Positions 15,833 through 62,294 of a stretch of DNA of 64,000 bases are shown here, piece after piece; within the stretch, counting starts at the first letter, position 1; each line of letters starts with the position of its first letter. The stretch is from assembly GCA_022539475.1 (NCBI GenBank), contig VCMS01000209.1, forward strand, positions 35,098 to 99,097, in the 5' to 3' direction. The stretch is from Gracilaria domingensis. Its lineage: Eukaryota; Rhodophyta; Florideophyceae; Gracilariales; Gracilariaceae. Position numbers and translations under genes: made by a program. The notes beneath the pieces were generated by a model, which did not search any database, had not been told where the DNA came from, and saw nothing but the letters and a program-made list of their open reading frames with translations.

Positions 15833-18045
15833 TCATCTCTTGCGTTGATTTCGAGCCGAGCGAAGAAGGCAGGTCTGAATCTGCCAAATTCTGATTTTTC
15901 TTGACTCCTGCTTGTAGCCCTCTTCTTCCAACGCTAATCTCATTCCATTGCCAAGTAAATGCAGACCAAAGAGGTTATGCGTCTTATGAAACAAGTTTGC
16001 TTCTGTTCTCTGCGTCGATCTCCGCATCTCAGCAAGCTACCCAGCCACTGATTCAACAACGAACTGCGAAACATTTCTCAGAGGCCCACACTCTTGTAAA
16101 ATTGCAGGGAAGCGTGGAATAGATTGCGTCGTTGGGGTCAGCCAGAACGCTGAGGATCTCTTGTCAAATAAAAATTCCAAGAACATCGAGTGAAGCTGTA
16201 TCACAGGCTTCTCTAATCGAGCTATGTCATGGACACGTGGAATGGCCTCGAACAGAATATAGGTGATCTTCGAAGTAATGCTCCATGTTTTCGTCAACTT
16301 TGTGTCAATTAAGCTACTGTTGAACAAACACGGGCAATGGAAAGAGGCCAAATTTTGAAGGTCTTCGGCTTTGAAGCCATCCAAGTGCTTAAATGACTCC
16401 GGAGGTCGTCCTTATACGGCTGAGATCCGTTTGTATCCGATTAAAATGCCTCGTTGATACTCTCGAGGACCTCGTGCTCAATAACGAAACTGTGCTTTGA
16501 TCGATCGCATTTTGGATGCGACCCAATTGTCAAAGCTACAAGATGTTTCACCAATACTAGTAGTCATTGGTGCATTGGATCGTAAGGAGTACATTTAAAG
16601 GTATCACGTTCGAGGTTTCCCAGCAACGGTCTGCGTCTGATACCCATACTCTTCATTATGTATTCCTGTTCAGCCCTAGTCGCAGCTCTCTCCACTTCAA
16701 TCCATGTTCTTTCCATCTCCTCTTTAGTGCGTATTGGATTGGATTCAAGGTTATTATAGCAATCCGGACGTCTCTCTGAGATCGTTCTAGGATTATTGTC
16801 AATATTTGCTCGCTCTGGTATCATCCACAAATGATTCCCGCCTCTACTAGGCCTTCGCACCTAGGCCTTCGCGCCTGTTTGAGACACTTTCGGCATGATC
16901 GTTCGGCATTATGACCCTCGCTTCCGAGCAGTTTACTTGCAGCGCACCAATCTGCATTGACAGAAACAAGGTAGCCGTAAATGGTTCTCACGTCGCCGTT
17001 ATTGCGACGTATTTGCACCTCCTTTCCATGTTCTGTAGATCTTGGATTAAAGGGACCAAAAACCTGTCGAAGAGCTCCGTGTCACGTGATCCAGGGACAA
17101 GTGCGGATAAGATTACATTTGCATCCTTAAAGCGGTATTCTGGACTGTAGTTCAGGATTGTGAACATGAATTGCCCGAGAGACTTTGTGACTTTTCGCCC
17201 TTTGAGAGCCTCAACACCATTGGATGAAAAAGAAAGGCATACAATTCTTCATTCTCTTTCCACGTACGAATTCGTTGTCCATGCTGATTGCGAAAATATT
17301 TACCGTGATAGAAGTTTTGAAGATGTAGATTTCCATTTCCTTGTCTCATCGCAGTAGGGTTATAAGCTCTCTTAAACTATTCGAATATTTCTTGAAACGA
17401 ATCAGGCTCTTTACACAGCGCAGAGATCTGCTCTGAAAGGAATCTATACCAATACCTTTGATGAGCAGAAAACTGAAGGTTGAGGTTGCAGTTGTTGCTC
17501 GGACATTCTAGGTTTGCAGCGTACTTCCTAAAATATGGAGCATGCTCTTCCTTGGACATGAAGACGAATTTGCGCCTAACCCCGGAGTAACTGCGCATAT
17601 AGTTGATGATGGAGTCGTAACTATACCTGGATTGCACCACATCAGTTCTCAAGAAACGCCTAGCCTAGTTTTCAGAGAGCCCATCGTACTCAATTGTAGC
17701 CAGAACGTGTAGTAGACGTTTTGCATCAATGTGTTTCAAATCTCCAGTAATTCCGTTTATTGGGGCTGGATCATCGTCCGTTTGTCCAGAGACGCTCTCA
17801 ATCTCTGGTGAAACAATAATGATCTCGTCCCATTGACTATCCTCTCTTACCGAACCGGCATCGACGGCTCCGATGTCGAGATTAAAGAACCCAGGCTGAT
17901 CCACAATGTGATTCACGTCTTCAATAATTCCAAGCGCCACTTCCTCATCATTGTTAGATATAAGCACTGGTCCAGATATTGTGTTATCATTACGGTCATG
18001 GTCCCAGTGTACTCCATTGAAGTCACTGGAGAAATCAAAATTCAA
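15833..18045 (-). pseudogene. Tnp2-type (CACTA) transposase, copy A, heavily decayed
   Basis: Reading leftwards, fragments align in order with the other two transposases in this window. An acidic N-terminal region (18045-17665) is followed by SPEYRFKDANVILSALVPGSRD and a further hydrophobic stretch (about 17130-17040). Then come VNADWCAASKLLG with SCRKCLK (metal-binding Cys pair), PYDPMHQ (copy of the IMHL/LMHL motif), and CGPLRNVSQFVVESVAG near 16070. A C-terminal tail ends at 15833. These match LLNTDPSERFKVRNVLP, KPCRNC, IDLMHL and CGPLSYLSQWSVENFVG of the other copies. Several frame changes and in-frame stops occur, including a TAG just after ESVAG. It belongs to the En/Spm (CACTA) superfamily, which uses a DDE-type cut-and-paste enzyme. 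Confidence 0.7.
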
Positions 18046-18675
18046 ATGGTTACTTCGTTGAATTTCAGTGCTCGTTTATTTTAAACCACGCGTATTTCTA
18101 ATTTCTCTCTCTTCACTGGAGCTCCTTCCTGTACGCTGTGCTCTCTGATCGTGAACGGAGCGAAATTGTTGTCCCACCTCGGAATATTGAGCATGCGTGA
18201 TGAGTCCTCTCTTGTTTTGGTTCATATGTTCATCATCACGTCTCTGGTTGTCCTGCCGATCTGTTTCAAAGATTCACGGCAACTATAGAATGAGATACTC
18301 TGAGATACCGTGTTCTGCTGTCCCTCGATATTAGCTGGGATTTAGGGGTAAATATACCGTTCTCTGGTTCGCGAGGCAAAATTTTGACGAAAACGCTTTT
18401 TTCTTGGGGCCATACGTATGAGTTCACTTGCCCTTGCCTTGAATCAGAGTAACCATAACACCCGATTCAACTGTAAAAGAATGATAGGAAAGATAAGACA
18501 ACCATCCCATCGAGACCAGATATGTTTCCGTGGAAATCGAAGCGAAGCCGTATGCGACAAATTCTTATAAATATCCATTGACCTGCACGTCTCTTCCCCT
18601 CGTCCACACCCCATCTCGACCTACTCTGGTCTGCCATATCCTTCCTTCTCCGCTACCAACTGCATCTGGATCCTT

Positions 18676-19107
18676 TTGTTTCAGGTGTATTGTCTCGATA
18701 CGATCAGTAAGGTTGTGTTCTCTCCATTTTTGCAAATGGTCAGGAATACGGATTCATTACCTTCAGAAGAGCGCGTCCTGTCTATTCCGACTCGGACTGA
18801 ATCCCGTCGAAGAGGCAAACATGGCGTAGAAGGTAAAGGATCACAGCGTCTCATTCGTGAAATATTCAATCGGAAGATGTCAGTGTATGAAGGCAGTGAT
18901 TATGATCCGCAGCATCCCATACCTGAGGAATTTGGCTACTGAGTAACGAGCAGCATTAGGTAGTAAATCTACTTCAATCGGTCCGTTCCAGATGATGGAA
19001 CTCTTACGTACCGCAAACTGGTTCGAGAACAGCCGACAGTTGTGGTTGAGCTTCGTTCAAGAATTGAGAGACATTACCGAATTCTGAGAAAAGCCGAGGT
19101 TCAATGA
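18676..19107 (+). pseudogene. Candidate partner ORF of Tnp2 copy A
   Basis: Divergent to the copy A transposase. One frame runs from 18676 to TGA 19105-19107 with TGA at 18940-18942 and tandem TAG-TAA near 18961-18966. The protein is charged and basic (ESRRRGKHGVEGKG, VELRSRIERHYRILRKAE), the last part being helical. It is shorter than the partners of copies B and C and shows no clear alignment to them, so the assignment rests on position and orientation. Confidence 0.35.
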
Positions 19108-19424
19108 GCTGTTACCATGCTCATTCAAAAAAGTCTTAGACAGGATCGTAAGTAACGCACTGGCACAGTTTCGGGACAAGCTAATGATATAAGAAGTGAA
19201 GCAACAGCGGCGCTTGATACATCCCTACTGGAATTCTGACACAATTTTATGCAGACGAAAAGCGGCATTACGTACTGTAGTCGCTTGTGCCAATGCTGGC
19301 AATAAGAGGAAATTGTCTCTGTCATGCTTTTAAATCCGGCACTGATTACCTGGATTGTGGCAATTTCCGACACCCTCTGAAGTGCTGCGCTAGAGCAATA
19401 AGTTGGCGAATATATTCTGCTAAT

Positions 19425-19467
19425 CGTTGATTGTCACATGTAGCAATGCTACATGTGACAATCAACG
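19425..19467. repeat. 43-bp near-perfect palindrome between two Tnp2 copies
   Basis: Two 21-bp arms (CGTTGATTGTCACATGTAGCA and its reverse complement) are separated by a single A. It lies between the end of the copy A partner ORF and the 3' end of the copy B transposase. It could be two element termini fused tail to tail. I did not find a further copy of the arm in the window. Confidence 0.6.
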
Positions 19468-19539
19468 GGTGCTTTTCGCTCGTCTTTGATCACGATATCT
19501 ACGTTTCTTGGCTCAAACCTGCCTCTTCTCACTTTTCTC

Positions 19540-19675
19540 CTCCCACCTAGCTTATCCCACTTGCCTTCCGCCACCCAGCTCGTCTCACCTGCTTCCCCCA
19601 CATATAGCTTCTACCACCTGCCTCCTACCACCTAGCTCGTCCCACCTAGCTCCTCCAACCTACTGCCTCCCACGT
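19540..19675. repeat. Degenerate C/T-rich tandem repeat, unit about 30 bp
   Basis: Words such as CACCTAGCTCGTCCCAC and CACCTGCCTCC recur four to five times. The plus-strand translation is a PPSSSHL-type repeat. It lies just downstream of the copy B transposase, on the side where the element terminus should be; subterminal repeats are common in CACTA elements. Confidence 0.5.
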
Positions 19676-19681
19676 GGAATG

Positions 19682-22600
19682 CGATTAACGCCGTCTATAT
19701 AAGTATAAGACGGATCCAGAAGTCCATCTGAACGAAGAGTCGGATCGATAAAGTAGACGCGTGTCCCACTAAATTCTGAATCGACGTTGTGCACAGGTGC
19801 CTTATGCTCGACAACTCCTATAACTCGTCGCAGAACCTCGAGATCTTCAATCGAATTTGTGCGGAAGATATTCCCAATGTTACCTGCCTTGACCCTATAA
19901 ACCCCGGTTATGGTCGAAATATGGCCGATATGTGACCGAAATGTTGGCGTATAAGTCGAAAACTCGTGAGAGCATATATCTCGTCAAGATAAGAAGCTTT
20001 TGTTTTCATGCATGTGGCCGAAATATGGCCGAAATATGGCCCATATATGGCCGCATTGAAAAACAAGAAATACCTATCTTGGTGAGATACGCGTTCTCAC
20101 AAAATTTCGACTTATACGCCAACATTTCGGTCACATATCGGCCATATTTCGGACATAACCGGGGTTTATAGGGTGAATACTTGTTGCTGCCTTCCCACTT
20201 GCAATCCTTCCTCTCAATCGAACATACCAAGCGCATATCTGTTTTGAAGAGGACTATGCTCCGAAAGTGAAGCTGGTCGCCATTTCAGACGAAACTCCAA
20301 CACTTTCAAGAGTCGACCGTAATACATGTCCGCTAGATTGTCTACAGTCAAATCCATCTCCACCGCTACGAAGTGGCTTCTTCGCTGTACCGATTGTGTT
20401 GATCTCAGTATGCTTGCGATTTGAGCGCTTTCGAAAGATGTAACAAAGCGAACACGCGAGTGAAAGGTTATGAATTCAACAGACTCTGACATTTGCTTCG
20501 CATCGCCAATAGAAAGACCCCCAGAATCATTGGCTTGCGCGTACTTGCGTCTAAAGTAGTCAAGCAAGAGAGCGCAAATTCTCCTTCGTTGAATGATCGC
20601 TCCAGCTTTCATTGTGTTACTCGGACCAAGACAGACAAAACCGTCTTTCATTAGAAGTTCCTGTACGTTCTCTGAGAGCAGGAGGAAAGGTTTGTTGTAA
20701 AATGACTTTGAGGCTTCTGAAAAGAATGAGTAGTTAATCATTTCAGTCGCAATATGCGACTTTGCCCTGGATGGCTGGTCGACCCAGCCAATAAATCCTT
20801 CAGACTAGTACTGCGACACTCCTTTCAAAGTACCATAATCAGACAATGTCTTTGAAAGATGAATTAAGACGTGATAAATGGACTTGCACATGTAAACCCT
20901 GGAGGCGTCAAAGCGGTAATAGTGTCGCTCAAAATGCTCCACGAATCTGACACAAAGACGGAAGTGATCACTCACATCTGACCTCCTAATACAGGCACGA
21001 AATGAAATATCCATTACCTCTGCAAGCAATTGTAGCCCATCCAGATAGCACTGGGGCAGTACTTCTTCAAATAGTATAAGAGAAAAGAGCAAAGTAAAGG
21101 CCTTATGATGAGCAGCTTTCCATCTACGATGGTGTTCGAGATGCATGAGAACGATTCCCAACTGCCCGGATAACTGTTCAGATCACATGTTAAACTCCTG
21201 ATCCAAAGAACGGATGACTGCATCAGTGATATGAAAAGCATCATCATCTCCCGAAGTCCCCAGTGTGAACATATCCTTCTGTATATTGTAAAACAAGTGC
21301 ATTATGTCATGCGGGAAGATATCGTATGGACCGGTATCGACAGGAAGCGAACTGAGCTCATAGGTTGGCAGAAAAAACAGGATAGAACTTTGTCGGATTC
21401 CAGTTTCCTTTCGAATGCGTTTTCTTTCATTGTTCGAAGCCACTTTGAGCTCCTCCAGGGTCAACTTGACAGTCAACGCTCTTCGATCAGGAGTGTTCAT
21501 AGGGTCTATGACTCTCTGAATTCTCCCGTTTCCATTTCTTACTCTCGTCAGATAGTAGTAATGTGAAGAACGACCAGAGATGCCGCTCATAATTCCTTCG
21601 ATGTTGCAATTTCGGCATGGCTTCGCTGCACAATGCCCGGCAAGGCCAGATATTTTCGATATCGCAGGCTGGTCCCCGGAGAAATAGATGAGATGAATAC
21701 GAACGTTTTTTGTCTCTCCGTCGAAGAACTTAAGTGGAAATCCGTCGCTTGGCATACTAAGCAGCTCATTAACAAAAGGCAGCAAGAAAGACTGAAGATT
21801 ACGTGGTTCGTTTGGTCCCGGTATGAATGCCAACGGGAGGACATTTTGCGGCTTATACCGGTGCAAAGGATGAAGATTGTATTTAATAGCAGCCATAACC
21901 CAGACGTTGTGATTGCTATTTATAGGGGGTGAAAACCATTCATGCTAATGGCAATGAATACATCGTTCTCAAGTTTCTCCGGACCACCATACTGAGAACA
22001 GAGAACATTGAAGCGGTCTCCATCGTAGAAATCTTGCAGCCAACCGGTACTTGCTTCTCTGGACGATCGATAGCTATAGAGCTCTTTGCAGGTATTTTCG
22101 TCTTGAACAAACCCGCAAATACGATCTAGCAAAGGTATAAACTTAAACGTATCAAACCCATTTCGACTGGAATCTGTAGAAGACGCGCGCGCTGCATTCC
22201 GTACAAACATTAGTTGACAGAGCATCTTCCATTGAGGACACAAAAGCCATATGCCCAGGGCAGACCTTGTAGATCTGGACGATGCCCCTGAGACCCGAGT
22301 GGAAAACAAGGTTGTTCGTGACGCTTTTCAAGCTTCGCAATGGTGCCTTTACAAAGCTTAATACAGCATCCATTCCTTCCCTCTGCACCCTCCAACGATC
22401 GCTAAACTGTACCCATGCTTCGTTCACTTGCAGCCATTGAAGCACTTTGTATGAATTTCTCTCCATAGTCTGGTCAGATGCTTCTACTCCTGACACAGTC
22501 CCTTCAATATCTTCCTCAGAGGTAAGCTGCATATCTCCTACGTTTCCACTTGGTGACGTAGGGAATGCCACATGATAAGTCTCGGAATTGTACGGTTCGC

Positions 22601-23186
22601 TAAGGTCTTGTTCATATGTGCTTGCATTGGTATGCACAACATTATGGTCCTCATCAGAGACTGGCAGTGGATGGAGATCGGGGCGAGCTGTGGGGAAATG
22701 GATATCAATGTTACTCGTGGATAAAGCAGGAGGGGACGCGTCGGTGACATTTTCATTGTGAGAATGAACCAGATACTCATTTTGTGGATTGATCGCGAGA
22801 AAAGCGTTTCCAGAATCATTTCTTTCACTCTCATCTCGAACCCCTTCTTCGTTCATAATCATCGCATTCCCAAGTGATACACTTGTCGGAGGAACATGGT
22901 TCCCAGCGCGCGCATCAAGTCCGTTCGAGGCCTGTTGACTTTCGTTGCATCCAATATGGACATAATCGGATGATGAAGTCTCAAATTGTTCAAAGTTGTA
23001 AAAGATGAGATTATCGGGCACCCTGGGGCCCCACTGAAACATTAGTCTTCCGTTCTCTTTCTGTACGCGATTCGCAGCTCTTTTATGATCCAGCATGGTG
23101 GTACGTGATACAGGCTTTCCCGAAGAGCAACGGCACCAAAACCAAGGAGGGCAAACATACCTTCGCTGCTTCTGAATATGCGCCAT
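19682..23186 (-). pseudogene. Tnp2-type (CACTA) transposase, copy B
   Basis: The ATG is at 23186. The N-terminus carries a putative zinc motif C-x5-C-x-C-x13-H (YVCPPWFWCRC, later LDHKRAA), spaced exactly as in copy C. A long acidic Ser/Asn-rich linker follows. Next is the core: NVLPLAFIPGPNEP, FLLPFVNEL, KPCRNC, HDIMHLFYNIQ, then GTLKGVSQ. The C-terminal part continues beyond the foldback insertion: translation of 19891-19682 gives IFRTNSIEDLEVLRRVIGVV and TRVYFIDPTL, which match VFTTYSVESVDTISRQ and RTYFVDALAG of copy C. Damage: frame changes near 22200, 21900 and 20230, in-frame TGA at 21183-21185 and TAG at 20805-20807, and the inserted element at 19892-20174. The enzyme would have bound termini and catalysed cut-and-paste transposition. 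Confidence 0.8.
19892..20174. mobile_element. Foldback/MITE-like element inserted in transposase copy B
   Basis: 283 bp, almost entirely palindromic. Arms of at least 79 bp (19892-19970 and 20096-20174) begin ACCCTATAAACCCCGG and match with few differences. Weaker pairing continues inwards to leave a loop of ATATGGCC repeats. It separates two parts of the transposase coding region that both align to copy C, so it is an insertion. It encodes nothing. I see no unambiguous target-site duplication. Confidence 0.75.
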
Positions 23187-23527
23187 CGCGGTGTGTCAGT
23201 TAGTATTCTATCAAGGACATGTAGCTGGATACGAATAGGTACGATACGGAGGGTTTGGTTGTGAATTGGGCATGATAAGACGTACTTCGTATATTCCTTT
23301 CCATTGATGACGTTAGTATCATCAGATAGATATATATAACGACAACAAATTCTGCTCAGAAAGACGAAACGAAAGACAAAAGATTGATATAATCCAGAAT
23401 TGCGACGTGTTAGCCCTCCTTAGGTCTTCGTCTCTTGTCGGCAACGCTTGGCAAGGTTCGATTCACTGATTGTTCTTGACCTTGACTACGGCCTGTTCCT
23501 ACCAGTGAATTATTCTTCTTTGGGTCG
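23187..23527. promoter_or_regulatory. Shared intergenic region between divergent Tnp2 and partner ORF (copy B)
   Basis: 341 bp lie between the two divergent ATGs and should hold both promoters. It has AT-rich tracts (ATATATATAACG near 23331) but no repeat that I can name. The equivalent gap in copy C is about 300-350 bp. Confidence 0.4.
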
Positions 23528-24802
23528 ATGAATCACATTAGCTCCAGACAATTTCAGGCCTTGGTACTAACAAAACTCGATGAGCAGCAAGCCGAACTCA
23601 AGAAGCTGCGCGAGTATGTTATGAGCAGGTTTTCGGCAGTTCTTGTCTCACCACAGCTCCCACCACTGCCCCGTCCCATTCAAGGGAAGGACATGAAGAG
23701 AACCACCAACGTCGCAAAGATGTTGCGTGACGAAATCGGAAGACGCAACGAACGTACTCTGCACACCGCGAAGACTACTGGGGACCCCTCAGGACCATTG
23801 TACATGCAGTTTGAGGATGGAATTCCAGACACGGGTTTGAATTCAGATGCAATGAAATGCATTGAAACCATCATCAGGCTACAACTTCCACCTGGATGGG
23901 AGAAGATGAGGTGTCTTGAGATATGCACTCTGTAGAGACAGAAGAGTGAGTTGGTAATTCAAGAAGCATCAAGAACGCCTGATCTGTACATATTTTCCCA
24001 AGCATCAAATCAATGGGCACTCAGAATGCTTGCTGAGCAAAGAACGTATGCAAGCCAAAGGACAGCCAAAAAGGAATCGAAGAAGTCCTTGAAGAGTGAG
24101 CGTGAAATCAGTACTTCAATATCTGGAGATGTGAGGAAAGACCTGAAGACTGATGACGCATATCCCACTGCTTCGGTGGCCAAAGCCCAACAGCATTCGT
24201 CAGTCGATGTATTAGATGGGTGTGCTAATGAAGACGGTTTACATGTTAGTGCAAACGAACCGGCTGCAGTGGTTGTGCCCGATCTTGTCGAGAAGGCGAT
24301 TTCAGCTGAGAAGAAAAAAGGTAGCTCAGACGCACCGAATTATTCTTCGAACGAGTTTACCGGTTTGCCGATTCGGACACCGCTTGTAGACTTGATGGGT
24401 ACGAAAGATATGGAAATGGTTAGCGATCATGCACAAAGCCGTGGAAGATCCGCTCAAGCTCCGAGTCACGTAGCACCAGCTGGAAGCATTGTTCAGGAAA
24501 AGAATGTTCATGTTGAAGGAGATGTTCTTCCTAATACTCAAAGTTCGAAACGAGAGAATAGCGCTCCAACTCAGAGTGAAAAGATGTTAGCCATGCTCTC
24601 TAATCTCAACCCAAACGCCATGGAAAAGTTAGTGAAATTTCTCTCGGAGGAGCAAGAGGACCCTAAGCCAGATACCTCAACCGAGTTGGCACATACCGCT
24701 GGAGAGAGAAACAATGTGCCTCCCATTCAAGTTTCGAAAGGAAAACGAAAGATAAAAAAGCGCAGCAGAGCAATTGCACGCAACTTGAAGAGTTCAAAGT
24801 AG
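23528..24802 (+). pseudogene. Tnp2-element partner protein, copy B (one in-frame stop)
   Basis: From ATG 23528 one frame runs 424 codons to TAG 24800-24802, interrupted only by TAG at 23933-23935. The N-terminus has a short coiled coil (LTKLDEQQAELKKLREYV). There is a compact region with RDEIGRRNERTL and LQLPPGWEKMR, then a long acidic, Ser/Asp-rich linker, a helix near MLSNLNPNAMEKLVKFL, and a very basic end (KGKRKIKKRSRAIARNLK). This layout, divergent from the transposase, suggests a DNA-binding or regulatory partner like TnpA of En/Spm, but no sequence match to TnpA is claimed. The same frame stays open to 25177 after the TAG; I treat that as untranslated. Confidence 0.55.
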
Positions 24803-27690
24803 ACCTCGTTGGGAGCGCAAGTGACGAACGATTTGGATCAGGGACAGGGTCGCGAACCCAATATTGATACTCAATACGGTTCGGGAGTAATAAGCCCCTA
24901 TACTGCAACACATTGTCCTAAGGAGAGAATGTTTCAAAGAAAAGAGTATGATACAGCACATATAGTACTCACCATATCCCCAAGTGTAGTTACCCATCGG
25001 AAGTATACCACATTCTGCATTGATTCAACACTTGATCAGATGACAGTTTCGCACAGCATTTCTTGCCTTCCAAGATTGACGATTGAGGATGTCGATGCAC
25101 CTCTAGGCGCAACGAGAGAAGGAGATGATTGCCTTTCAGAGGTTGAAAGCCAAAAACCTGGACCAGAACCACCATAAGAGTTGTGAAGAACAACTTAACT
25201 CACGTCGTGATGCATAGGAGAGAGACAGTAGTATTATAATTCCGAATTGTATGTTTCTCAAGCTGCCTTTGGGCGGAGATCATATCTTGATGCCCGTAAA
25301 CGCAAGAAGTTGGCCAACTTACATCCCGCATATTCGCAATAGACCTTATCACCTGTTTCCTTCATGCAATGCTACCTTGGGGGTACGAAACGGGCTTGAT
25401 TGAGAGCATAACAAGTTTGGAGAGCACAAGCGCATGATATGGTGCCATACAATTTGAGGCATCCAAACAATTCTGACACCCCGTAAGGCCTGAAGAAAAG
25501 TAGAATCACACGATTTCCTTATGTTGCGATATGGCCGCATGCTACAGTTACTCTAAGAAGTGTAGTACTGAAAAGCCAAAGTGTTGAGACGCTGTTGTGA
25601 GGTGTAATACATATTTTTAGTCCAACGTTTCTTCATCTTCACCACGTGACATGCCATTTCCTCAATGCTGAAATTAGCGAACTTGTCTGGATTGGTGGAG
25701 AAAAGTTCAAATTCGAAGGAAATAGCAATTGGGCTGCAAGTGGTAGAAAGAAGCCCACAATGCCCATCATTTTCCCTGCTTGAGTACAAGTCCATCCAAG
25801 TACACAATTTGTGCTTCTGACACAATAGGCCGGGACCCGTCAGGTTCATTCACAACGTCCATCCATTTGCTTTCTACAGTGCAACTATCATTTTGCGCGG
25901 ACGATCTTCGAAAAACGTGCTCCGCGGAATTACGAAATCAGGGAGATCAAGGTCAAACCATCGCAAAATACCGTTATCAAGCATGTCAAAAGCGAAGACT
26001 TACCGGAGCTGTTGTCCACCTACATCTCCACCCGCACTTCGGCTTGCATCTCCCCTGTGAACCGCATGTTCTCTAGCTCCTTACGCTGTTTGCATGAAAT
26101 ATAAGAAACGAATTGGAAAGGATTTCATTGTGTACTATGCGTTTCAGAAGATTTTGACGCTAGAAACTTAGCGAACGAATGGACGGGTTTGTCACGAAAT
26201 GGGTTTCGGCAGAGAACTGACTTGAGAGGGTCATGGCGAGCAGTAGATATGACGTCTTCGGCTCGCACCAAGATATGATTGTGATATTGGTGCAAAGATG
26301 GAGTACCAGCGCCTAGGGGTAGCCCTCTACCGTCTGTACCGCTGTACCCGGGCAGTTACGTAAAACAGAGTCTGAGACCGTTCGCCATTGGTTTCAGAGG
26401 TTACGCGAAAGTGCGAAATCCTACCAGATGATTGGGTTGGAAAGGTTGCGCGATTGGGCCAATTAAAAGGCAAAATTTTCTGTGCTTCAGACTGGGCAGT
26501 ATTCCCATGAACATTAAAGCTCGAACGATGGTGGAGGAGAGATCCTCTACCAAGATTGTGTCGGCATTGTGAAAATGACTCCAATACCCTCGTGTTCCGC
26601 AGAGCAAAAAGACTTGTGAACGGCCGCGAAGCATTCAAATTGGGATTGTCTCACGCAACAACCATATCGATCACATAGGATAACCAAGAAGTGTCGCGCA
26701 GTCTACGAGATGGGCAGTGATTTAGCTGCGACTGTCGTGATGCCATGCAAGAACCGGTGCTCGCATTCGATGAAACCCCAAAACAAGGTCAGATGGGGAG
26801 CCATGAGTTATAACGCACATGCTAACAACGTTTGCGCCAAGCGCAGTAGACGGAACGAGTTCCAGGTTTGCCACTTCAGCATTTGCACACTCGACGTACA
26901 AGTAAGTCTATGCTGCTCTTTCCGGCGAACACAGTGGAAAGCGTTGTGCCCAGTCCGAAGTACCCCCGCATGGCGTGATTGACACCAAGAGGTGCCTGGA
27001 ACTCTCGTTCTATGCAAAAAATGCTGCCCAAGAGCCGATGAATCAGTGGCCAGAGGCAACAAGAGTTTGGGCAGCAACTGGCGAAGTGCGTCACAGTGAT
27101 GGCCTCCCTAACCAAACTTTGATCCTCGAACGTATGAAAACTGCCTGTTTTGAAAGGAAGCCTTTTGCTGCCAATTTACTCCACATGTTGGTCCAGCAGC
27201 AACAAGAGACACGACAACAGAGTTCAGGAAGATAGAAACGTTTACACGTCCGTCGGTAGAAATGTAAACTTCTCCATCTGTGTTCTTTTCTTTCAGTGGA
27301 TATTCAAAGTCGCAATGGAAAAATCTTTATCCTGTTGACCAGCAAGGGGTGCGACCTTGTGAGGGGAATGACCAGTTTGATCCCATGCTACGACCGGTAC
27401 GGATTTCGCAGAGCCTGCGCTCGAATTAAGGCAAACTTTTCTTCTATCTGGAGATACCTCTTTCGATTTAGCGCTGCGGTCATCTCCAGCATCGACGAAT
27501 GTGACAAGATTTGCACCCTCCACTGCAACATTAACAAACACGTGAGGTGCATACCCTTCGGAAAGACTCATTAATCGTTCCCAACGACTTTGATGCTAAA
27601 CACTGTGCAATCGTGAACTGGGGTTGACCCGCTTCCAGCGTTGTGCAAATCCTTCTTTTCAAGAATCCTTATAGATAATTTTCTCATATC
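24803..27690. other. No recognised gene; weak ORFs only
   Basis: Short frames on both strands. The most protein-like is plus-strand 26975-27235 (RVWAATGEVRHSDGLPNQTL, then Q-rich), with no family that I recognise. Minus-strand 25553-25849 is similar in quality. The right terminus of Tnp2 element B must lie at the start of this stretch, but I could not identify its inverted repeat. Confidence 0.4.
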
Positions 27691-27698
27691 AGGAGGTA

Positions 27699-28453
27699 CT
27701 AAAAGGTTGTCCCAGGAATACCGAGTGCTTTTCGCAGCGCGAAGAAGCTATGGTCGTTCATGTGATCCAAGCTGCGAGAAAACCACAGCGCGTTCCTTAC
27801 ACAAGTTCGCAATTCTATAGGGAGGGTTTTGTCTCTTTGAAGTAGCCAACAGCTCCAACTTGAGCACCCGTATGATACAAGACCAACCCAAGCTCGTGTA
27901 CAAGAGCTGGATCCTTTCAACAGGATTCAGGAGATCGTCACAGCATGGATTCCGGCTGTTTGAGAGAGCCTTTTCGAACATACTCCATGCTCATAAACGA
28001 AAGAGGTTTCTGTGAGCCGGTAAACAGTCTGGTCACCGTTCGGTACGCCACCATAGCTTGGTAGCTTTCATCTTGAGCACCAAACGCGTGTCCAATCGCA
28101 ATCCATGCAGGAGCAATGCGCATATGAAGAGCAGTTCTCTTCTTGAAGAACCGGCGCGCCAATTCTGGTTTACCGCTTACCAGATAGTAATATCCGACCG
28201 CCAGCCAACTAATAGCGGTTTTGGGAGCATTGTCCACAAGATTGTGAGCGATTAAGACCTCGTTTCTGTCGTTGAGTTCCACCAGCGTAGCAAGATATAT
28301 GGAGAGAATTTTGTGAGCATGTAGATCACTCTGCAAGATTTGCCGACAATCGTCCAGACAGCTGCCGAATTGGAAGGAGTTGAACTTGCGTTTCGCATGC
28401 ACGATCTTCAGATCAAATTTATCGTTCACGGAAGGAGAAGAGGGCGTTTCCAC
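27699..28453 (-). pseudogene. APC6/CDC16 (anaphase-promoting complex TPR subunit) fragment
   Basis: CDC16/APC6 is a TPR scaffold subunit of the nuclear ubiquitin ligase that drives the metaphase-anaphase transition. The fragment shows the family in order: AISWLAVGYYYL, ARRFFKK, IAPAWIAIGHAFGAQDE, QAMVAYRTVTRLF, MEYVRKGSLK, then DPALVHELGLVLYHTG and AVGYFKETKPSL, and finally RKALGIPGTTF. Between SLK and DPALV the frame is unchanged and ungapped against the family but holds TGA at 27938-27940 and 27917-27919. A third stop, TAG, is at 27815-27817, and the last piece is in another frame. The N- and C-terminal parts are absent. It is a dead fragment of a gene that is normally single-copy and essential. 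Confidence 0.8.
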
Positions 28454-28609
28454 ATAACGGTTCGCACACGCGGTATAATAGGAAGAAAGCCATTTCCTGA
28501 CAAGAGCGTGAGCTTGAGGTGTTGAGAGCGTATGTAAAAGCGGTTCATTGACAAAATTTAAAATCTAAGTAGGGCGGTCACCACGAGGCGGAGTGAGACT
28601 AGTTCGAAG

Positions 28610-29512
28610 GTGCTCTCATCAAGCGTGGGATTAGCATCAATGAATGGAGCGGCAGTTCTCGCCCTTGTTGGAAAGGATATCTCAAACATAACCGCATTCA
28701 TGGAAAAGCAGGTTCCTCTCCATCAGAAGAAACATTTCGTGTATCTAGTAGTTAGGGGCTGCTGTGTTGAGTTCTTCTTGTTTTCTGACTCAACACGCCA
28801 GACTATAGCTTTATAAGCGTCATGGTAAACCCACCAAAACCCAGGACGCAATCTTGTGACCTTCGTAACAGTGGGTGTCATGTATAGCTAATCAACAACT
28901 TCTCATTCCAGTCCACACTAGCTAAACTGCAATATGTCTAATCAGGAACATTGACCTAATATATGTCTCTACATAATTCACAAAAGCACATGTCCCAAGT
29001 GAAACAACTGAAACCAGCTTTGGAACCATTGTATGCGATTCAAAGTTTATACAAGTGTGATCCCACATCTCACGCAATGGCTGAAGCATATCGAGATGCC
29101 AAGTTCATGATCGACAGAGCTCTTCGTGCTCTTGGAGCATTGTATTACGGAGCTCACCGTCAATATTCGTTCCCAGACAATCTGGGAGAAAAGACGCCAT
29201 TCCTACGCACACACCTCGTGCGATTCTTGCTCGTTGTGCTACGTCTTGTGGTACTAACGAAATAGATTTACAGGCTTCGTCCGTGTGTTGCATAGGTTTG
29301 CATACTTGGTCCTTAGATCTGCTTCCGAAGGCTTCTTGCGCAACGCGCGTTTGGCGTTTGATCGGTTGCAAATGAGTCATTACTTCGGTACATACACAAG
29401 TCTGTCTTTTGAATACGCAAACAACATTGAAGGGCCTCCTAAAGCTCTTCGTCAAGACCTGAAGATCGGAAGAGCAATCCAATACTACTTTGAAGCACTT
29501 CATCGAAGATAA
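28610..29512 (+). pseudogene. Unrecognised ORFs between APC6 and dynein fragments
   Basis: Three plus-strand frames (28610-28816, 28963-29265, 29285-29512) give protein-like sequence. The better parts are AEAYRDAKFMIDRALRALGALYYG and ARLAFDRLQMSHYFG with SLSFEYANN. They may be exons or frame-shifted pieces of one helical protein. I do not recognise a family. Confidence is low because none is long. Confidence 0.3.
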
Positions 29513-29575
29513 GTACATACATCTACAGGTAGCGTAGATTCGCTGGCATACCAAATCCGAGATCAGAGACCTACT

Positions 29576-32155
29576 TCACACCTCTACTACAAAACATGAA
29601 ACCCCACAGAGTCGCCGTAAGCGATGCAAGTGCCTTTTATCCATACTAATCCTCATGGTTGCGATTAATATATTCTGCGGTGAAGTTCCGTAAAGAGGCG
29701 CATCGATTATGTGCTCATTTTCCCCAAAATTATCTGCAGGTCTCCATTGCAGTGCAACCGTTCCGCAATTCCCAGAGGAGCTTCCGCTTAAGACAAAACA
29801 TTCTTTTTTGCAATCCCATATTGCTCCATTGAGGCCTAAACCGGACAGCAAACATTCTCCCACCTGAACCTGCTTTCTAAAACTCAGAACTGGTATCGGC
29901 GTATGAGGTGAAACACCTCTTTCTGCAGCGGCTTCAAAGCGAAGTGCAGTCATAAATGAATTCGGTCTCAGAATATGTGACATACTGAATAACTTTGGTT
30001 CCTTAGTAAGAGGAATATTTCTCACGCAATCTGAAATCTTAGAAAACACGCCCAAGACGGTTCAATTTTCTCCGAAAACCTTTGCAACATCCTTCCACAG
30101 AGAAGGGAGTTTGTGCGATGCTGTGGAACGAATAGAAACCAGTTCTTGCTTGAAAACAGACAATGAATTCATTCGCTTCGGAGTTAGTCTATCTGGTTTG
30201 ATGATATTCTTTGCCACGGACTTGATACTCGTAATGAGTGCTCCCAGTACCACCTTTTCTGTTTTCCAGAATCGATCAAGAGAAGTGTTAGAAGAGAAAT
30301 CCGAAGAATCAGCATGCACAGTGTCAGGAAGTTCTAGCGCACGTTGCAATATTTCATCTACTTTCGCCTGTGCCTCGTCTTGCATGATAACTGTTGTCTC
30401 TTTGAAATCATTTGGAGATTGCGTCATGCCCCTGGACATAGATACAAGCTTTTGAACAGCAAGCCTACCTTTCTTTGACCTCTTCGCTTTCGTTGTTGCT
30501 GACGGCATGTAGTACCACTCTGGACTTATTTGTAAAGGCAAGTCTAGCAAAAAGCGGGCCCTCTTCTCTCGATCTATGGGAATTCGAATAACGTCTGGCT
30601 CACGAGGTGGCTTCACGACGCTAACACTCCCCAATGAGATGGAATCTATTCGCTCCTTCGAGAATATGTCATCAACAAGGGCATCTAAAATTATTTCCTG
30701 ATCTGTCTCATTCTCAATATAGCAACCATAATCAGCTGTTTTCAGCATATGAGAGAAACTCAAAACAGCAGGGTCGGAGTCCAGACTAGCTGATACTAGC
30801 AGATTCAAATTCCATCCAGCCGCAAGATCTGACTCAGAGAACTCATACTCCTTGCTGAAACCAACCGGGCTATTCAGAGCTCTTTCTGTCAAACATTAAT
30901 GATTTTCATACCATCAAGAGCTGTACTGGAGCTTAATGTTCTGGAACGATAATCACTCTCGAATGATGACAAGCGTTCAATAGCACAAGTCATACCAGTG
31001 CGGAAGTTTCTTGGAGCTTCAAATGAAAAGAAGTTAGATATGCTGGCTATCCTCATGAGAGTCACCGATGGCGATGTGAGAGAAGGCTCTGCTACCATGA
31101 CAAGAAGATAGTGCAACATGCCTCTGTTGCTCAGAAGAAAGGCTTGAATCGTGTTCATTGTCGATTTGCCCGCTAAGTGCATATTCTTGAGCAAAACTAG
31201 AGTTTTTGTCCCTGCCTGGGCCCTGCGCATGGCATGGTTCATAAGATCTGAAACCTCAGCCTCTGAATTGGTAGACCCCATGGCAAGGCATGCGAGTGGT
31301 ATCTGGTATTCGTTTGCTAGTTCACTCAGGAGAAGAGCAGGATCTGAATTTTGCCACGGCTACAGAGCAGAATAGACTGAAAAAGAGATGATGATTCGTG
31401 GTCATTTCTTTCGGAGAAGTTACGAAGCGTCGACTTCAAAGCGAATTCAGGCGCTGCGCGGTCCCCAAAGACCAGTTGCCTCCTGTCTGGAAGCAAACAA
31501 GCCAGATATCCTACACCATCGCGCACTCAGAATGACTCGTGTACAGTTCTGGAAAGAACTTGAAGACAAACATCAAATGGACGCGTACCGTTCACTTGTG
31601 GCCGTCGTCCATACCTGCGATGGCTTGCTGCAAGAACTCTGGCAGGTTTGACATCAATTCCGTACTACGTTTTGAATGCAACGTCTTGGAACTTTGCACA
31701 GCACTGAGTGCCTGGAGGGCCACTCGGAGTTGCTGAAGATTCTTCTCTTGAGGATGAACTCCGACGTCCGAAGATTGCACTAAAGACAAGGCGGCAGCGA
31801 ATGGGATTCGGTCTCTTGGAAACAAGCTTACTGCTGTTCTCGCATATATATGTTTCAGTAGTGCATCTTCACAGTCTCTGACATTTTCTGCGTTGGGAAG
31901 TGCCTGCATGATTTCTCGGCACACTAGAATAGCTTCTTCGAAGATTTGCAAGAAGTAGCTTGAGATAAAGCGGTATTGAGGGTAAACATCGACCAGGGCT
32001 CTAACAATCTCAAAAGTTTTGATAGCTGTTAGACCTAATGGTGCAAACAGCTTCGTGAAAAAGAGGCAGCGGGCTATACTAAAGAATACCCTCGTCTTAT
32101 TACTGATGCATGCATTTCGTGGCGAAGAACAACTTACTACCGGGATCTCAAACAT
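29576..32155 (-). pseudogene. Cytoplasmic dynein heavy chain, C-terminal fragment (AAA5-AAA6 to C-terminus)
   Basis: Cytoplasmic dynein is the minus-end-directed microtubule motor. Reading leftwards, pieces fit in order: FPRDRIPFAAALSLVQ (about 31820), LLPDRRQLVFGD (about 31500), and DPALLLSELA followed by LACLAMGSTNSEAEV. Then come LVLLKNMHLAG (the dynein-1 phrase before AAA6), ERALNSPVGFSKEYEFSESDL, and the C-terminal domain LRPNSFMTALRFEAA and SGLGLNGAIWD, ending SCFVVEV at 29576. An apparent GT-AG intron begins at 31592 (CAG|GTATGG). Frame changes near 31355 and 30890 and stops break the frame. The motor's AAA1-AAA4 and tail are missing upstream, where sequence passes into the Sel1 gene. 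Family certain, dead copy. Confidence 0.8.
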
Positions 32156-36835: not shown

Positions 36836-36837
36836 AC

Positions 36838-39180: not shown

Positions 39181-39181
39181 G

Positions 39182-56474: not shown

Positions 56475-56947
<473 letters not shown>

Positions 56948-57556
56948 GATAACCATGGCTGGCTGCTACTTCCTTCTAGCAATCACTGCTTCTTTGCTAG
57001 CTGCCACTCTGTGTGTCAGTTCTCGCTGCTGCTGGAGAGAAGCGGATTCTATTACAGATGTACGCCACCATTACCGCTGCATAAAATGACACAATAAACA
57101 TAGGATAACAAAGCCGAAACCCATTCCCCACCTGCAGCTGCTATGTTTCCACGTCAAAACCTCATCGATTCTTTACCTACTCGTAGAGAAGTTCAATCAC
57201 TGCAAGGAATGAAGGATGCGAAGGAGAAAAAGAAGTACACTTTACGAAGTAGTATGATTTATAGAAGAAATTTGAAACATTGAAGAGGTGTGAAAACCCT
57301 GCGAAAACTCATTCTCAGATCCTCGATAGCAATTGGGCAGGGGCCTGTTCGTGGATCTTCATGTATCAACTTATGCTTCATCAGATGACGACTCCGAAAC
57401 AACCCGAACCGTTTTTGAAACAAACTTGTGTGGCTTCTTCGCTCTGCCACCGTTCTTCGTATGCTTTTTCGCGATACTCAGCTGATGACATTGGTCTGCA
57501 TTACCACGGAGGCGCTTTAGCAATTGGTTTCCTTTGCCGATCCTATTCTTGCCTAT

Positions 57557-58834
57557 TTATCGATTGCAGGCTCTCTTTGCAGTATGACTCGGAACCTTTA
57601 ACTTGTTGCTCTGGCTCCTTGCTTTCCTAATCACTGTTGAACTTAACTTCGCCACCTGTGAATCCTGGTCACTGACCGGCAAACCACTTTCTGCATCCTG
57701 TATCTCACTTTCATCCTCATCAGAATAGTTCTGGTCTACCCTTGAGATGGTACGGGCAGAGGTGCTCTTGTCGGAAGTTTTATGCCCTGTTCTCGGAGAC
57801 ATTGGTTCACATTCGTCATCTGTAACAGAAAATAACTCTTCCGCATCACGGCACTTTTCCTCATCTTCACGTCGCTTTGCATGGCATTTTTGAGACTTTT
57901 TCGTTACCTCTTGAGAGTCTCGAGGGAGCCAGCTCTTCCTAGAAACGTGTTCTGTTTGAAGCGCTTCCTGTGACAGCTTTCGTCTATTTCGTCTCACTAC
58001 TTCATCGTATTTTTCCGATACCACGGTGATGTTCAAGAGATAAGCTTGAAGCAGCCAAACTCGATTCACTGGATTGATTAGAACCAGATGGCAACTTTTC
58101 GCCACTTGCCTCGCTTTCACATTGAGCCGCGGTATTCATGGCCGCAGCTGGGTCGCGCATCTGAAATGCAGTTCCAGCAGCATCACAACAATCAGCGGAG
58201 ACCTCTCCCTCACGCTCCGATGTGCTTGCGTGAAGAATGTTGTCGCCTTCTTCAGCTTTCCAGCCCTCATTCTCTCAGCTTTGACCTTATTCACATTCAG
58301 TTTTGATAGGTCTTCCGCTGATCTTTGGGGCATTCTTCCGTTAAATGATGCCTTCTTCTCAGCCTTCCTCCTCTTACCAGCCATTCTTCCAGCCTTTCGG
58401 TTAACTAGCTTCGCCTTTATCGCTTCATGAGCGGCCCAAAGATGTTTAGTGGCTGCTACATGTTCAAATGTGCCAGCTATCTCCGTCATGATCCGCCTCA
58501 ACTCGGTCTGAAATTCGTATCGTCTGTTTGAGAACTGGGATTCCATCTCCTGAAGAGTAAGTTTGCCATAGTATTGGTGAAACGGACTCGAAGCTTCAAA
58601 TTCTCCGCCAATGAACTTCATGAGCCGCCAGGAGTACGCCTTAGCGCTGCAAGTCAAAGGGGGAACTTTATCGGCTTTAACTGAGACGAAAGAGTTGTAT
58701 TTGACGATGGAAAGCTCAAGATGTTCCCCAAAGTACACCTTTCCATGCACAGAAAACTCGTTGGGGTGGCAGAGAACATCCATCTTCATGATCGCCGAAG
58801 GAGAGCGGAGGAATAGAAGATAGAGACACAGCAA
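57557..58834 (-). pseudogene. Tnp2-element partner protein, copy C (one in-frame stop)
   Basis: Divergent to the copy C transposase. The likely start is the ATG of MKMDVLCHPNEF near 58790. One frame runs to 57557 with a single TGA at 58136-58138. The N-terminal 110 residues look folded (GEHLELSIVKYNSFVSV, SAKAYSWRLMKFIGGEF, RYEFQTELRRIMTEI). A Lys/Arg-rich helical region follows (AGRMAGKRRKAEKKA), then an acidic Asp/Glu/Ser linker and a basic end (KARSQSNKLKVPSH). Size, charge pattern and position match partner B, though I see no clear residue-level alignment. DNA-binding accessory protein of the transposon is the likeliest role. Confidence 0.5.
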
Positions 58835-59136
58835 GGGATCGACAACGCAATCTGACTGTGTGAATATGGGAAGGCAAGTCCACGGGAGAGAGACGAGCGC
58901 TCGGTGAAGAGGTTTTAGAACATGACGAGGGAGCCACCAAAAGAAAAGTATGGTTGAAATGCGCTGAAGTTTACTTTTTTCGCTTCATCGTCCCCAGCAA
59001 GAAATACTCTAAGCTCATGGACATTTGTTCACCTTCTGTTCTCCTAACTCACCATGCAGGAACAATTCAAGTTCTAACAAGACCGTAAGGATAGTGCACC
59101 TGGTGGAAAAGCTCGAACAAAGTCCAGATCAATCCA

Positions 59137-62100
59137 ATGGGTGGATATCGATGTTCGACAGCAAGTAGATGCCCGTGCGTTCCTGGAAAGATAATCAGCC
59201 GTGTCACAGCATTTCGACATTATCGCGCTGCTCTGAAGCTCGAGAGAAGTTTAAACCCACGGCTGCCAAAAGCAGTTCCGCCTCCAACACAATTGGGCGA
59301 GGAACTTTCCAATCGCGACGAAGAAGGAACTCCTTCGACATCTACGAATACAAGACATCCAACAATTCAAGTTCTTAACACTGATTCTCATTCCAGTGAT
59401 TCGAGGAACGGCACCAGAGATGAGCCCGACATATCAACTCAATCACTCTCTACGTTGGCTTCGAATGGATACGTTGGGTCCCGGCACTGGATGATACCAG
59501 AAAGTAATGTGCCTGGTAGGGCTCCGAGCCATATCTCTCCTGAGGTGGATTATTCAGCGAATGAGATCACATTCTCCTCTTCTGCAGCTAAATATGAAGA
59601 CACAGGACAAGTAATATCTGCATCAGGGAGCATCTCGTACTTTGAGGAATCTCCGGAAGAGGAAGAACTTTTCTCCCCAGAGTGTGACCCAATTCTGTTG
59701 AGACTAAGTGATGAAGATAAACGCGAGATTGAAGACGTGGGAATCAGCGTCGATGACCACTTCCCCGATGACACTTCCAATGCATCAACTATGGGAGGAG
59801 CCTAATCGCCTTTTAAACAGTTGATGAAGTCTCACAGTTTTCTCATATCCTTTGCCATTAAACATGGGCAGGTTACAACAGAGATGATGAATGATTTGCT
59901 CCAGGATCGCGGAACATCTTACAAATCATGGGTTGGTGTGCGAAAGGCACTGTTTCGCGAGTCTCAAGTACAGTTGCAAATGTATCCGTATTGCTCCCAA
60001 TCTCATATGTTGTTGCTCTCTGAAGATCTTACGACGCGCAAACTGTGCCATCATCGGAGATGTAAATCAATACCAGCACCGATTTCAATGATTGGTTACA
60101 TTTCTCTAGAAGGACGTCTCAGAGCAAGACTAGGCATCCCATCTACCGGACCCCAATTGTATGAATACTATTGGAAGCAATTGAAGCAGTGCTTTGGTCC
60201 GAAGAGATGTGAGGTTTATGATGACTTTACGTCAGGACGGATTTTCAAGAACATCGTGACGCGCCTTGGCGGTGTGAATGAAGTCAGGTACGACATCTTC
60301 TTATCAATCTCTACAGATGGAGTCAACGCGTTCAAAAAGACAGAGTACAGCTACTGGCCAATAATTCTCATGCTTCTCAATACAGATCCGTCCGAAAGGT
60401 TTAAAGTGAGGAATGTGCTTCCCATATCTATTATTCCTGGCCCGAACGCTCCATCTGATCTCAATTCTTTCCTTATACCCCTCTTGCATGAGCTCCAGAA
60501 ACTTCGGTCGGGTATTGAAGTCAGAATGTGGGATGGCAAGACAAGAAAGATTCGAGTTCACCTCATCTATGTGATGGGTGACCTCGCTGCGCTGAAGAAA
60601 CTTACAAATCTGAAGGGTTACAATGCCTTGGTTCCGTGCAGGTTTTGTCTAATCGAGGGACACTATCTCGCGAGTAGGCGTCATGTCTACTATCCCCCAT
60701 TTATCCAAGAGAAACAAGCGGGTAAAACTATCAACAGGAAATTATGGGATTCAAATCACCTTCCTCTTCGTACTCTCACAGCGTTCAAACACTCCATGCA
60801 GCACCTTCGAGAATGCGCTTCTTCCCTTTCAGCCGCTGAGCTGGCAAAAAGGTGCTAGGACTTGGGAGTAGAAGGGACTGATACCTGTATTCTCGTGGAT
60901 TCCATGGAGTTTCTCGAACCATTCCATGGTTTTACGATCGATTTAATGCATCTATTATTTGAGAACATTGCTTCCGATATGATGGCTCTTTGTTGTCATG
61001 ACTGGATTATCTTTGAAGACATATCCTCTCTGCAATCGAAAAATATCCAAGCGCAGGTTAGTGGAAGACGTCGGAACGCGGGGCGTTTGTTCAATGATAG
61101 AATAAGAAGACCACAAGACCTTTCTAAGCGCAACAGATGGAAAGCCACAGAGTGGAAAGCATTCGTAATGGATCTCAGCCTGATCGTCTTGGACGGTATT
61201 CTTCCTTCACATCTTCTCTCTGGATGGAGTTATTTTGTCAAACTCTGTCGGTTATTGTCAAAATGGACCCTGTTTGAATCCGACTTGTGCCGTATAGGAC
61301 ACTTATCCAAGCGTTTCTATTCACATTTCGTGACTACGAACTACAAAGGAGCTCCCGAGCGTGTCCATCTCTGCAAGTATGTCTCCCATTTACTTCTACA
61401 TCTGGAAGACTCCGTAAGATCCTGTGGTCCCTTGTCATATCTGTCACAGTGGTCTGTCGAAAATTTCGTTGGTGCTCATAACCGGCAGTGCAATTCCACC
61501 TTCCGACTGGCGGATTCAGTACTGAGAAGATCAAACTACTCGAGTCAGCCAAGATGTACTGTGTTCTGAACGATATTAATTTGAGCCTCCGAGACGATGA
61601 CATGATCGGGCAAAGAAGCTCATTAGTTCGGTGTAGTTCGAAGCCATATTTTGAAGGATACACCTTTCGCCATCCAAGAATGGTTCGCACATACCACGAA
61701 ATCTCGAGTAAGATCGGATGCGATTTTAAAGCGCTTCTTGAGTCGTACTTGCACCGCGAGTTCGGCTCTGGACATAGATCTCCATGTCAGGATCGGGACG
61801 ACGTTATCACTTGGGGCAGATTGGTGGACGAGAAGGCCGACGACGGATATCACACTATGTATGCTGGCTCGTTATTCAGGCGCGAGGAACTAATCACAAG
61901 AGCTTCCTGTTATGTTGTCGGCAAGTACCAGGGCAGCGCTGAAACGGAGATAGATTTGTTTTACGGGAAAGTTTTGATCTTCTTTGAGATGGATATAGAT
62001 GATGCAGTGAGTTTGCTTTGTCTTGCACGCTGGGTCGTCTCAGGGCTCGAGAGGGGCACTCAGAATCAACTCTTCAAGAAAGGTCTAGACACTGAAGATC

Positions 62101-62294
62101 GGGTGTTCACCACGTACTCAGTTGAGTCTGTTGACACAATTTCAAGGCAAATTTCTATCATTGAGCAGAGCGTCAAGAGCTACAAAAGGCCGAGGATGCA
62201 GAAGCGAACTTATTTCGTTGACGCCTTGGCAGGCTTCAATTTCCGTTACGATACGGAAGATGGGTTTGAGTACAGACTTCAGGGGCTGTTGTAA
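59137..62294 (+). pseudogene. Tnp2-type (CACTA) transposase, copy C
   Basis: ATG 59137. The N-terminal zinc-like motif C-x5-C-x-C-x13-H (YRCSTASRCPC, then FRHYRAA) has the same spacing as copy B. An acidic Ser/Glu-rich linker ends at TAA 59803-59805, and the frame continues unchanged. Core: KLCHHRRC, DIFLSISTDGVNAF, YSYWPIILMLLNTDPSERF, NVLPISIIPGPNAP, FLIPLLHEL, LVPCRFC. TAG 60856-60858 is again followed in frame by FTIDLMHLLFENIASDMM and CGPLSYLSQWSVENFVGAHNRQ. Near 61500-61560 the frame shifts once and runs to TAA 62292-62294 with YFVDALAG near the end. It is about 1,050 codons with two stops and one indel, the best preserved of the three. It catalyses DDE-type cut-and-paste transposition. 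Confidence 0.85.

Follow-up and report, generated by a model that had tools for sequence, protein, structure and literature searches.

Introduction

Among the closest described systems to the transposons analysed here are the plant CACTA/En-Spm elements (En-1/Spm, Tam1, soybean Tgmt*); our own material comes from a 64,000-nucleotide stretch of the genome of the red alga Gracilaria domingensis (assembly GCA_022539475.1, contig VCMS01000209.1, positions 35,098 to 99,097; the whole stretch is called ‘the window’ below), in which three genes for a Tnp2-domain transposase—copies A, B and C—are each paired with a second gene, the ‘partner’, on the opposite strand. The plant elements likewise combine a Tnp2-domain transposase with a 3-bp target-site duplication (TSD). 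They also have subterminal repeats, for which short repeats near our ends are candidate counterparts, and they need a second, DNA-binding protein, a property that is predicted for the partner. Whereas, in the portions of the sources available to us, the plant elements make both proteins from one spliced unit or from tandem open reading frames (ORFs), here the second protein has a separate, divergent gene (PMC1636069, PMC2613891). Plant ends are CACTA, whereas ours are CCCTA; and the second proteins of En/Spm-type elements are described, in those same portions, as having little similarity between elements (PMC1636069, PMC2613891), whereas the partner has a conserved part. Large size is shared: Tgmt* is given as 20.5 kb in the part of the account consulted (PMC2613891), and our element B is also long.

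Other systems resemble ours in part. The TRC elements of animals and fungi (SmTRC1, and one of Tribolium with ends beginning CCCTAGTAGC) also encode a Transposase_21 domain but differ in having a 2-bp TSD and, in SmTRC1, alternative splicing together with tandem ORFs; the available portion of the source describes no divergent partner for them (PMC1636069). Giant EnSpm elements of red algae that carry several accessory genes are cited in PMC12477816 (available in part) from the paper on the Bostrychia moritziana genome, and that genome paper may have reported our partner gene, or part of what follows, before us. According to the excerpts at hand, IS3EU elements hold transposase and alpha-kinase genes in opposite orientation (PMC12730594) and PIF/Harbinger elements a second ORF beside the transposase (PMC2528002); both belong to other transposase superfamilies, and the comparison of their second proteins with the partner is one of organisation only. 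Within these partial texts our literature search met no Tnp2 element described as carrying an accessory gene in divergent orientation, although the red-algal account may cover it.

We read the Gracilaria elements, with a probability of about 0.68, as EnSpm-superfamily transposons with CCCTA ends whose divergent gene is a predicted TNPA-like DNA-binding co-factor.

Results

Divergent pairing of transposase and partner across the genome

The genome searched comprises 77.9 Mb in 680 contigs. A search with the PF02992 profile (Tnp2, Transposase_21) gave at least 146 matches (150 of 152 candidates scored, all counts being lower bounds), which we call listed transposases; three fall in the window, where copies A, B and C account for one apiece. 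Partners were sampled as five types (A, B, C, L062 and D, the last from contigs C137 and C237), and seven families (C, B, L062, C237, C137, C238 and C115) were examined at sequence level. Four partner queries run genome-wide gave 39 hits for the L062 type, 39 for C, 13 for B and 129 for D (query from C137), and these 220 rows merge to 177 partner loci.

Within 4 kb, a divergent partner homologue accompanies 114 of the 146 listed transposases, the gap between Tnp2 domain match and partner match being 1351–2115 bp (median about 1634). Seen from the partner side, 115 loci have a listed transposase no more than 3 kb away, 114 of them being divergent to it and one tandem, with the other 62 of 177 lacking such a neighbour; at 6 kb the figures become 115 divergent, four tandem and two convergent. 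Under uniform placement, a distance of 3 kb or less between a partner and a listed transposase would arise by chance in about 1.2% of cases. The first-pass annotation had proposed, from the window alone, a conserved head-to-head pair organised otherwise than in classical CACTA elements, and had asked for a genome-wide tabulation of the nearest divergent ORF: the counts above bear out the pair, and the organisation does depart from the single or tandem transcription units of En/Spm, SmTRC1 and Tgmt*, as these are set out in the parts of the literature available (PMC1636069, PMC2613891).

The elements being mutually related, these are not 114 independent events, and the stronger argument is one of depth: between the C409, C510, C238 and C137 families, amino-acid identity of the transposases is just 24–36% (C238 with C137, 30%; C409 with C510, 36%), and all four have the divergent pair. 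The partner is present in six of the seven families examined, the exception being C115, where gag/protease-like ORFs (by eye, a retrotransposon) lie upstream and the roughly 2.5 kb inspected hold no partner. The paired fraction depended on the queries, standing at 50/146 with the first three alone; of four families left unpaired by those and then examined, three (C237, C137 and C238) proved to have a divergent partner. Such a fixed head-to-head arrangement suggests that transposase and partner are an old working pair. That the order was instead merely inherited from one ancestral element, with separate promoters and a layout of no functional meaning, is a possibility that we take seriously whilst doubting it: it draws on that same relatedness of all the elements, and has to accommodate a layout that outlived so deep a divergence of the transposases, as well as start codons that stand 320–578 bp apart in the five families measured.

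In the window itself each copy does pair a PF02992 transposase with an opposite-strand gene, as first annotated, and all three are decayed, A being degenerate and B and C interrupted (Table 1). They do not form the one close family that had been supposed; they belong to three distant lineages. The contig (C209) has five listed matches in all, the two outside the window, at contig positions 16.6 and 25.3 kb, likewise having a divergent partner; it is a transposon cluster with nesting.

The partner as a conserved protein

Hidden Markov model (HMM) searches of partners were run against 3,389 ORFs from the collected loci. A model of two D-type partners finds type A at E 1.4e-8 and most partners of type C at 4.2e-6 to 0.11 (the window copy at 0.0013), fragments of type C scoring more weakly; the C model finds L062 at 1.8e-8 and D at 8.8e-4 and 0.0021; and, profile against profile, A+D matches C+L062 at E 2.5e-6. 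Genome-wide, the D query recovers A-, C- and L062-type loci, and 23 merged loci are hit jointly by two of the three queries C, D and L062. On this sequence evidence, partners of types A, C, D and L062 are homologous. The closer partners (A with D, C with L062) track the closer transposases (C238 with C137, C409 with C510), which fits co-divergence of the two genes, as judged by closeness rather than by a tree test.

The N-terminal part of the C-type partner, compared between lineages, has proportions of synonymous (pS) and non-synonymous (pN) differences of 0.74–0.95 and 0.14–0.23; pS being far above pN, amino-acid changes in this part are strongly disfavoured, and it is under purifying selection. 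Single comparisons agree (D, pS 0.80 and pN 0.27; B, pS 0.70 and pN 0.23), whilst recent pairs have ratios of 0.65 (window against C409) and 0.74 (C279 against C73), as expected for decaying copies. The C-terminal part is far less conserved (pN about 0.5). Both genes of the pair have intact copies in the genome.

These results bear on the suspicion that the partner is a passenger or host gene captured by chance, or the pair an artefact of duplicated contigs. Some copies are indeed segmental or contig duplicates (C209 and C319 are near 100% identical beyond the element; C510 and C97 have a common flank), and element B does carry host-like fragments; these, however, lie elsewhere in the element than the partner, and purifying selection, along with the occurrence of the partner next to most listed transposases at numerous distinct sites, makes the idea highly improbable, the genome-wide count having largely refuted it.

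All seven partners examined are basic (isoelectric point 9.2–10.4). The acidic linker and basic end that the first-pass annotation had described hold for the partners of C137, C237 and window copy B, in which a net-acidic middle precedes the basic end, and fail for those of C409, C510, C166 and C10. The L062-type partner has an end that is Cys/His-rich by eye (Pfam only E 0.024). A PDB profile search returned nothing below E 0.33, and an AlphaFold2 model of window partner C as a single sequence has a mean predicted local distance difference test score of 45.

A protein of this make-up might alternatively be an anti-silencing or transcriptional regulator acting outside the transposition complex, as the VANC proteins are anti-silencing and regulatory proteins of VANDAL elements, in which case the layout would serve early expression of the regulator. 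We think this unlikely, if far from negligible. A basic protein with a fast-changing C-terminal part, Cys/His-rich in the L062 type, would suit that role, and plant TNPA itself both reactivates and represses its promoter (PMC1636069, available in part); Pfam, for its part, found neither a demethylase nor a methyltransferase domain in the partner, and a gene that stands next to the majority of listed transposases, over deeply separated lineages, fits an essential co-factor just as well, if not better.

Element B is complete and encloses both genes

Element B is bounded by a perfect 11-bp terminal inverted repeat (TIR), CCCTACTGGAA, with the 3-bp TSD CAT on both sides. Once the insert and one CAT are taken away, the matched halves of the copy A partner stand 42 bases apart, exactly as in the relative on C238, with no change of length; the joined 114-base empty site matches C238 at 69 bases ungapped (next best offset, 47), identity adjacent to the junction being modest at 17/30 on each side. 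Shuffled breakpoint regions gave such a repeat plus duplication in 2 of 20,000 trials, and an end scan (left 18.6–19.7 kb, right 24.8–40 kb) returned the element B pair as its sole result, 0 of 20 shuffles giving any. TIR, TSD and exact empty site together thus define an element of 18,521 bp that encloses transposase B and partner B—the kind of termini that the first-pass annotation had asked to be located, around far more than the two genes of which it took the element to consist. The pair is the core of an 18.5-kb element with further content. Only two copies of CTTATTGC are present at each end. On C241 a relative keeps the two genes in this arrangement, and over its first part the partner there is 59% identical in amino acids.

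The further content includes minus-strand stretches at 27.9–37.5 kb that look like captured host gene fragments, to judge by the matches in Table 1; dynein would be odd in a red alga. The 281-bp miniature inverted-repeat transposable element (MITE) within transposase B is palindromic with CCCTATAAACCCCGGTTATG ends, and most of the 74 rows returned by a DNA search of the genome are copies of it elsewhere; given these copies and its CCCTA ends, it qualifies as a candidate non-autonomous relative of elements with CCCTA termini.

Table 1. Positions, in the window, of the features of copies A, B and C
Feature	Position	Strand	Evidence or remark
Tnp2 transposase A, degenerate	15646..18413	-	relative of C238
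Partner A, first part, stops inside	18733..19212	+	D-type query E 6.7e-4, five stops; 72.5% amino-acid identity to C238 partner
Element B (complete Tnp2 element of 18,521 bp), lying within partner gene of copy A	19223..37743	.	A-partner homology breakpoints, TIR, TSD
Left TIR of B, CCCTACTGGAA	19223..19233	+	TSD CAT at 19220-19222
Tnp2 transposase B, interrupted	19678..23186	-	5' end 23186, extends to about 19678
MITE, 281 bp, inserted in transposase B	19893..20173	.	CCCTA ends, TSD TGA
Intergenic region of pair B, putative bidirectional promoter	23187..23527	.	341 bp between start codons
Partner B, 424 codons	23528..24802	+	in-frame stop at 23933-23935
CDC16/APC6-like fragment in B	27938..28564	-	E 6.7e-30 to 3hym
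Dynein-heavy-chain-like fragments in B	29576..31359	-	Dynein_C 8.4e-10, AAA_lid_11 5.3e-8 above Pfam cut-offs; Dynein_heavy 0.0072 below
Sel1-repeat-like fragment in B	32912..33628	-	E 3e-4, below Pfam cut-off
Carbamoyl-phosphate-synthase small-chain-like fragment in B	36865..37482	-	CPSase_sm_chain 1.1e-8 above cut-off; GATase 5.5e-4 below; E 1.4e-23 to 5dot
Right TIR of B	37733..37743	-	TSD CAT at 37744-37746
Partner A, second part, beyond element B	37752..38165	+	homology to C238 partner
Partner C, interrupted	57374..58789	-	intact relative 475 aa
Intergenic region of pair C	58790..59136	.	347 bp between ATGs
Tnp2 transposase C, interrupted	59137..62294	+	intact relative 1052 aa (C409)

Copies A and C, and the L062 family

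Copy A had first been given an extent of 15.8–19.1 kb, but its partner gene continues at 37.75 kb, the two pieces resulting from the insertion of element B within it. The relative on C238 has two open frames, divergent, with ATGs 320 bp apart. For copy A, a search for ends of the CCC...GGG kind beside a TSD gave none; it was weak at that range, shuffled sequence also passing the threshold in 4 of 20 runs.

Copy C has a near-identical relative on C409 (locus L060), at 96% DNA identity: a 1052-aa Tnp2 ORF, then 348 bp, then a 475-aa ORF on the opposite strand, to which the window copies correspond at 92.6% and 96.5% amino-acid identity (transposase, in two pieces) and 78% (partner). The pair recurs at 66–91% DNA identity on C136, C92, C243, C158, C73, C179 and C279, the first part of the partner being recognisable in all seven. 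No termini could be set by comparison with the 100%, 96%, 91% and 80% copies, since similarity to the left runs far beyond the two genes (100%, 96% and 91% copies) and to the right past the contig end (all copies). The similarity of the 80% copy (C92, locus L014) begins at 56401; the window holds neither CCCTA nor TAGGG at 55.2–57.4 kb, and L014 has one CCCTA at 1229, near the start of similarity, that is not there in L009 or L060.

Left of copy C, a 427-aa ORF with no significant Pfam match (window 55325–56254; C409:20040–21320) is one of a dispersed family with 58 matches in the genome; as a candidate third gene of the element it was rejected, lying near (within about 4 kb of) a listed Tnp2 only in the five duplicated C segments and at a single further site, among 55 of the 58 matches measured. 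A roughly 0.5-kb A-rich imperfect repeat at 56476–56950, which would read as poly-lysine on the plus strand, is missing from the sister copies on C319 and C409.

The L062 family (C510, C97, C180, C178 and C73) provides a terminus for a second family: its right end is exactly TAGGG at four insertion sites with unrelated flanks (C510, C180, C178 and C73), the fifth copy, C97, using the insertion site of C510, and five GTACGCCA repeats, one of them inverted, lie within the last 190 bp of the family, ahead of TAGGG. Among coding elements, complete ends are thus available for copy B, and a right terminus for L062. The left end of L062 was still not in reach after 13.7 kb; in copy C97 the left-hand boundary was tried as a candidate end and rejected, having no TIR-like sequence. 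On our model the left end would read CCCTAGAAG, preceded by GCG (C510), CTC (C180), AAT (C178) and CTG (C73).

The C510 element sits in an abundant repeat (L063:1754–2739) found at about 95% identity in at least 35 other places (40 of 499 candidates scored). Inside the repeat unit of the family, which exceeds 13.7 kb, a serpin-like ORF (L064:3230–3733; Pfam 8.9e-18) is possibly cargo, the stretch being covered at nine places, its own included, at 82–100% identity.

Elsewhere in the window, a D-type (C137-like) partner has left an isolated relic on the minus strand at 43351–43599 (E 1e-8 by HMM, 0.001 by the D query) with no Tnp2 listed nearby, and genes resembling, by eye only, an AMP-binding/adenylation gene and a carotenoid oxygenase lie at 44703–46541 and 47531–48646.

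Discussion

The transposase places these elements in EnSpm: the Tnp2 domain matches PF02992 at E 4.9e-14 in the intact relative of copy C, 4.2e-15 in L062 and 1.1e-15 in C137, and the TSD around element B, the one coding element for which it is available, falls within the 2–3 bp of EnSpm/CACTA. Their ends, CCCTACTGGAA in element B and TAGGG at the right of L062, do not start with CACTA or CACTG, so that we file them under EnSpm by transposase and not as CACTA in the strict sense. Since all but one of the 115 partner loci at up to 3 kb from a listed transposase are divergent, the one-unit or tandem-ORF organisation of the En/Spm type does not apply; and the TRC elements, which pair a TIR starting CCC with a 2-bp TSD, have the CCCTA start in common with ours but not the 3-bp TSD of B.

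The usual core of these elements is a ~1000–1150-codon Tnp2 transposase and a ~320–640-codon basic partner, arranged head to head; it lies in a unit ending in CCCTA...TAGGG inverted repeats, flanked by a 3-bp target duplication and with room for far more DNA, element B being the complete example. In the mechanism that we propose, the transposase would cut and join the element ends. By analogy with TNPD and TNPA (PMC2613891, PMC1636069, each available in part), the partner is proposed as a DNA-binding co-factor, a TNPA counterpart that would bind the subterminal repeats, draw the ends together and regulate the promoter; and the short intergenic region may, to judge from its spacing alone, be a bidirectional promoter yielding both proteins together.

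Several observations weigh against a TNPA-like partner as the regular companion of these transposases. Copies without a divergent neighbour, which the first-pass annotation had named as the finding that would count against it, do occur in part: within 4 kb no partner was detected at 30 of the 146 listed transposases, and at a further two the nearest is tandem, beside the 114 that do have a divergent one. Conversely, at 56 of the 177 partner loci the surrounding 6 kb on either side hold no listed transposase (five of these, on C179, C241, C384, C530 and C329, adjoin a transposase recognised by DNA only), and six that do have one are tandem or convergent to it. Neither Pfam, PDB nor structure prediction offers a DNA-binding fold for the partner. 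Lastly, the B-type partner stands apart, the HMM searches linking it to no other type among the 3,389 ORFs and its 12 loci (13 hits) coinciding with no locus of the other partner queries.

This last point would be explained if B-type partners were not homologous to A, C, D and L062, two unrelated genes having been recruited to the same divergent position, a reading that is doubtful to us and yet deserves weight. It has to contend with a profile comparison of B with A+D that gives E 0.0057, aligned at a common conserved Trp (best of 60 column shuffles, 0.05), and with the likeness of B to the other types in position, distance and basic character. Against C alone the B partner scores E 0.43, and the homology of partners B and C that had been put forward for checking is not established; a relationship of type B to the other types is suggestive only, from these profile scores.

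A bolder form of the co-factor reading would make all five partner types, B included, one protein family, in an obligate pair that co-diverges and shares a bidirectional promoter whilst outer cargo, host gene fragments among it, is exchanged freely. We advance it tentatively, believing it somewhat more often wrong than right; if true, such an obligate-pair radiation would provide the first deeply conserved accessory protein for EnSpm elements, as far as the literature surveyed, in part, extends.

In CACTA elements, as portrayed in the partial sources available, the second protein comes from the transposase locus and is too variable to compare, whereas here it is separate, partly conserved, mostly present and encoded by intact copies. 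A separate, conserved partner gene with intact copies makes an accessory role, co-evolution with the terminal repeats and coordination by the promoter testable, and element B, at 18.5 kb, shows how much DNA such elements can carry.

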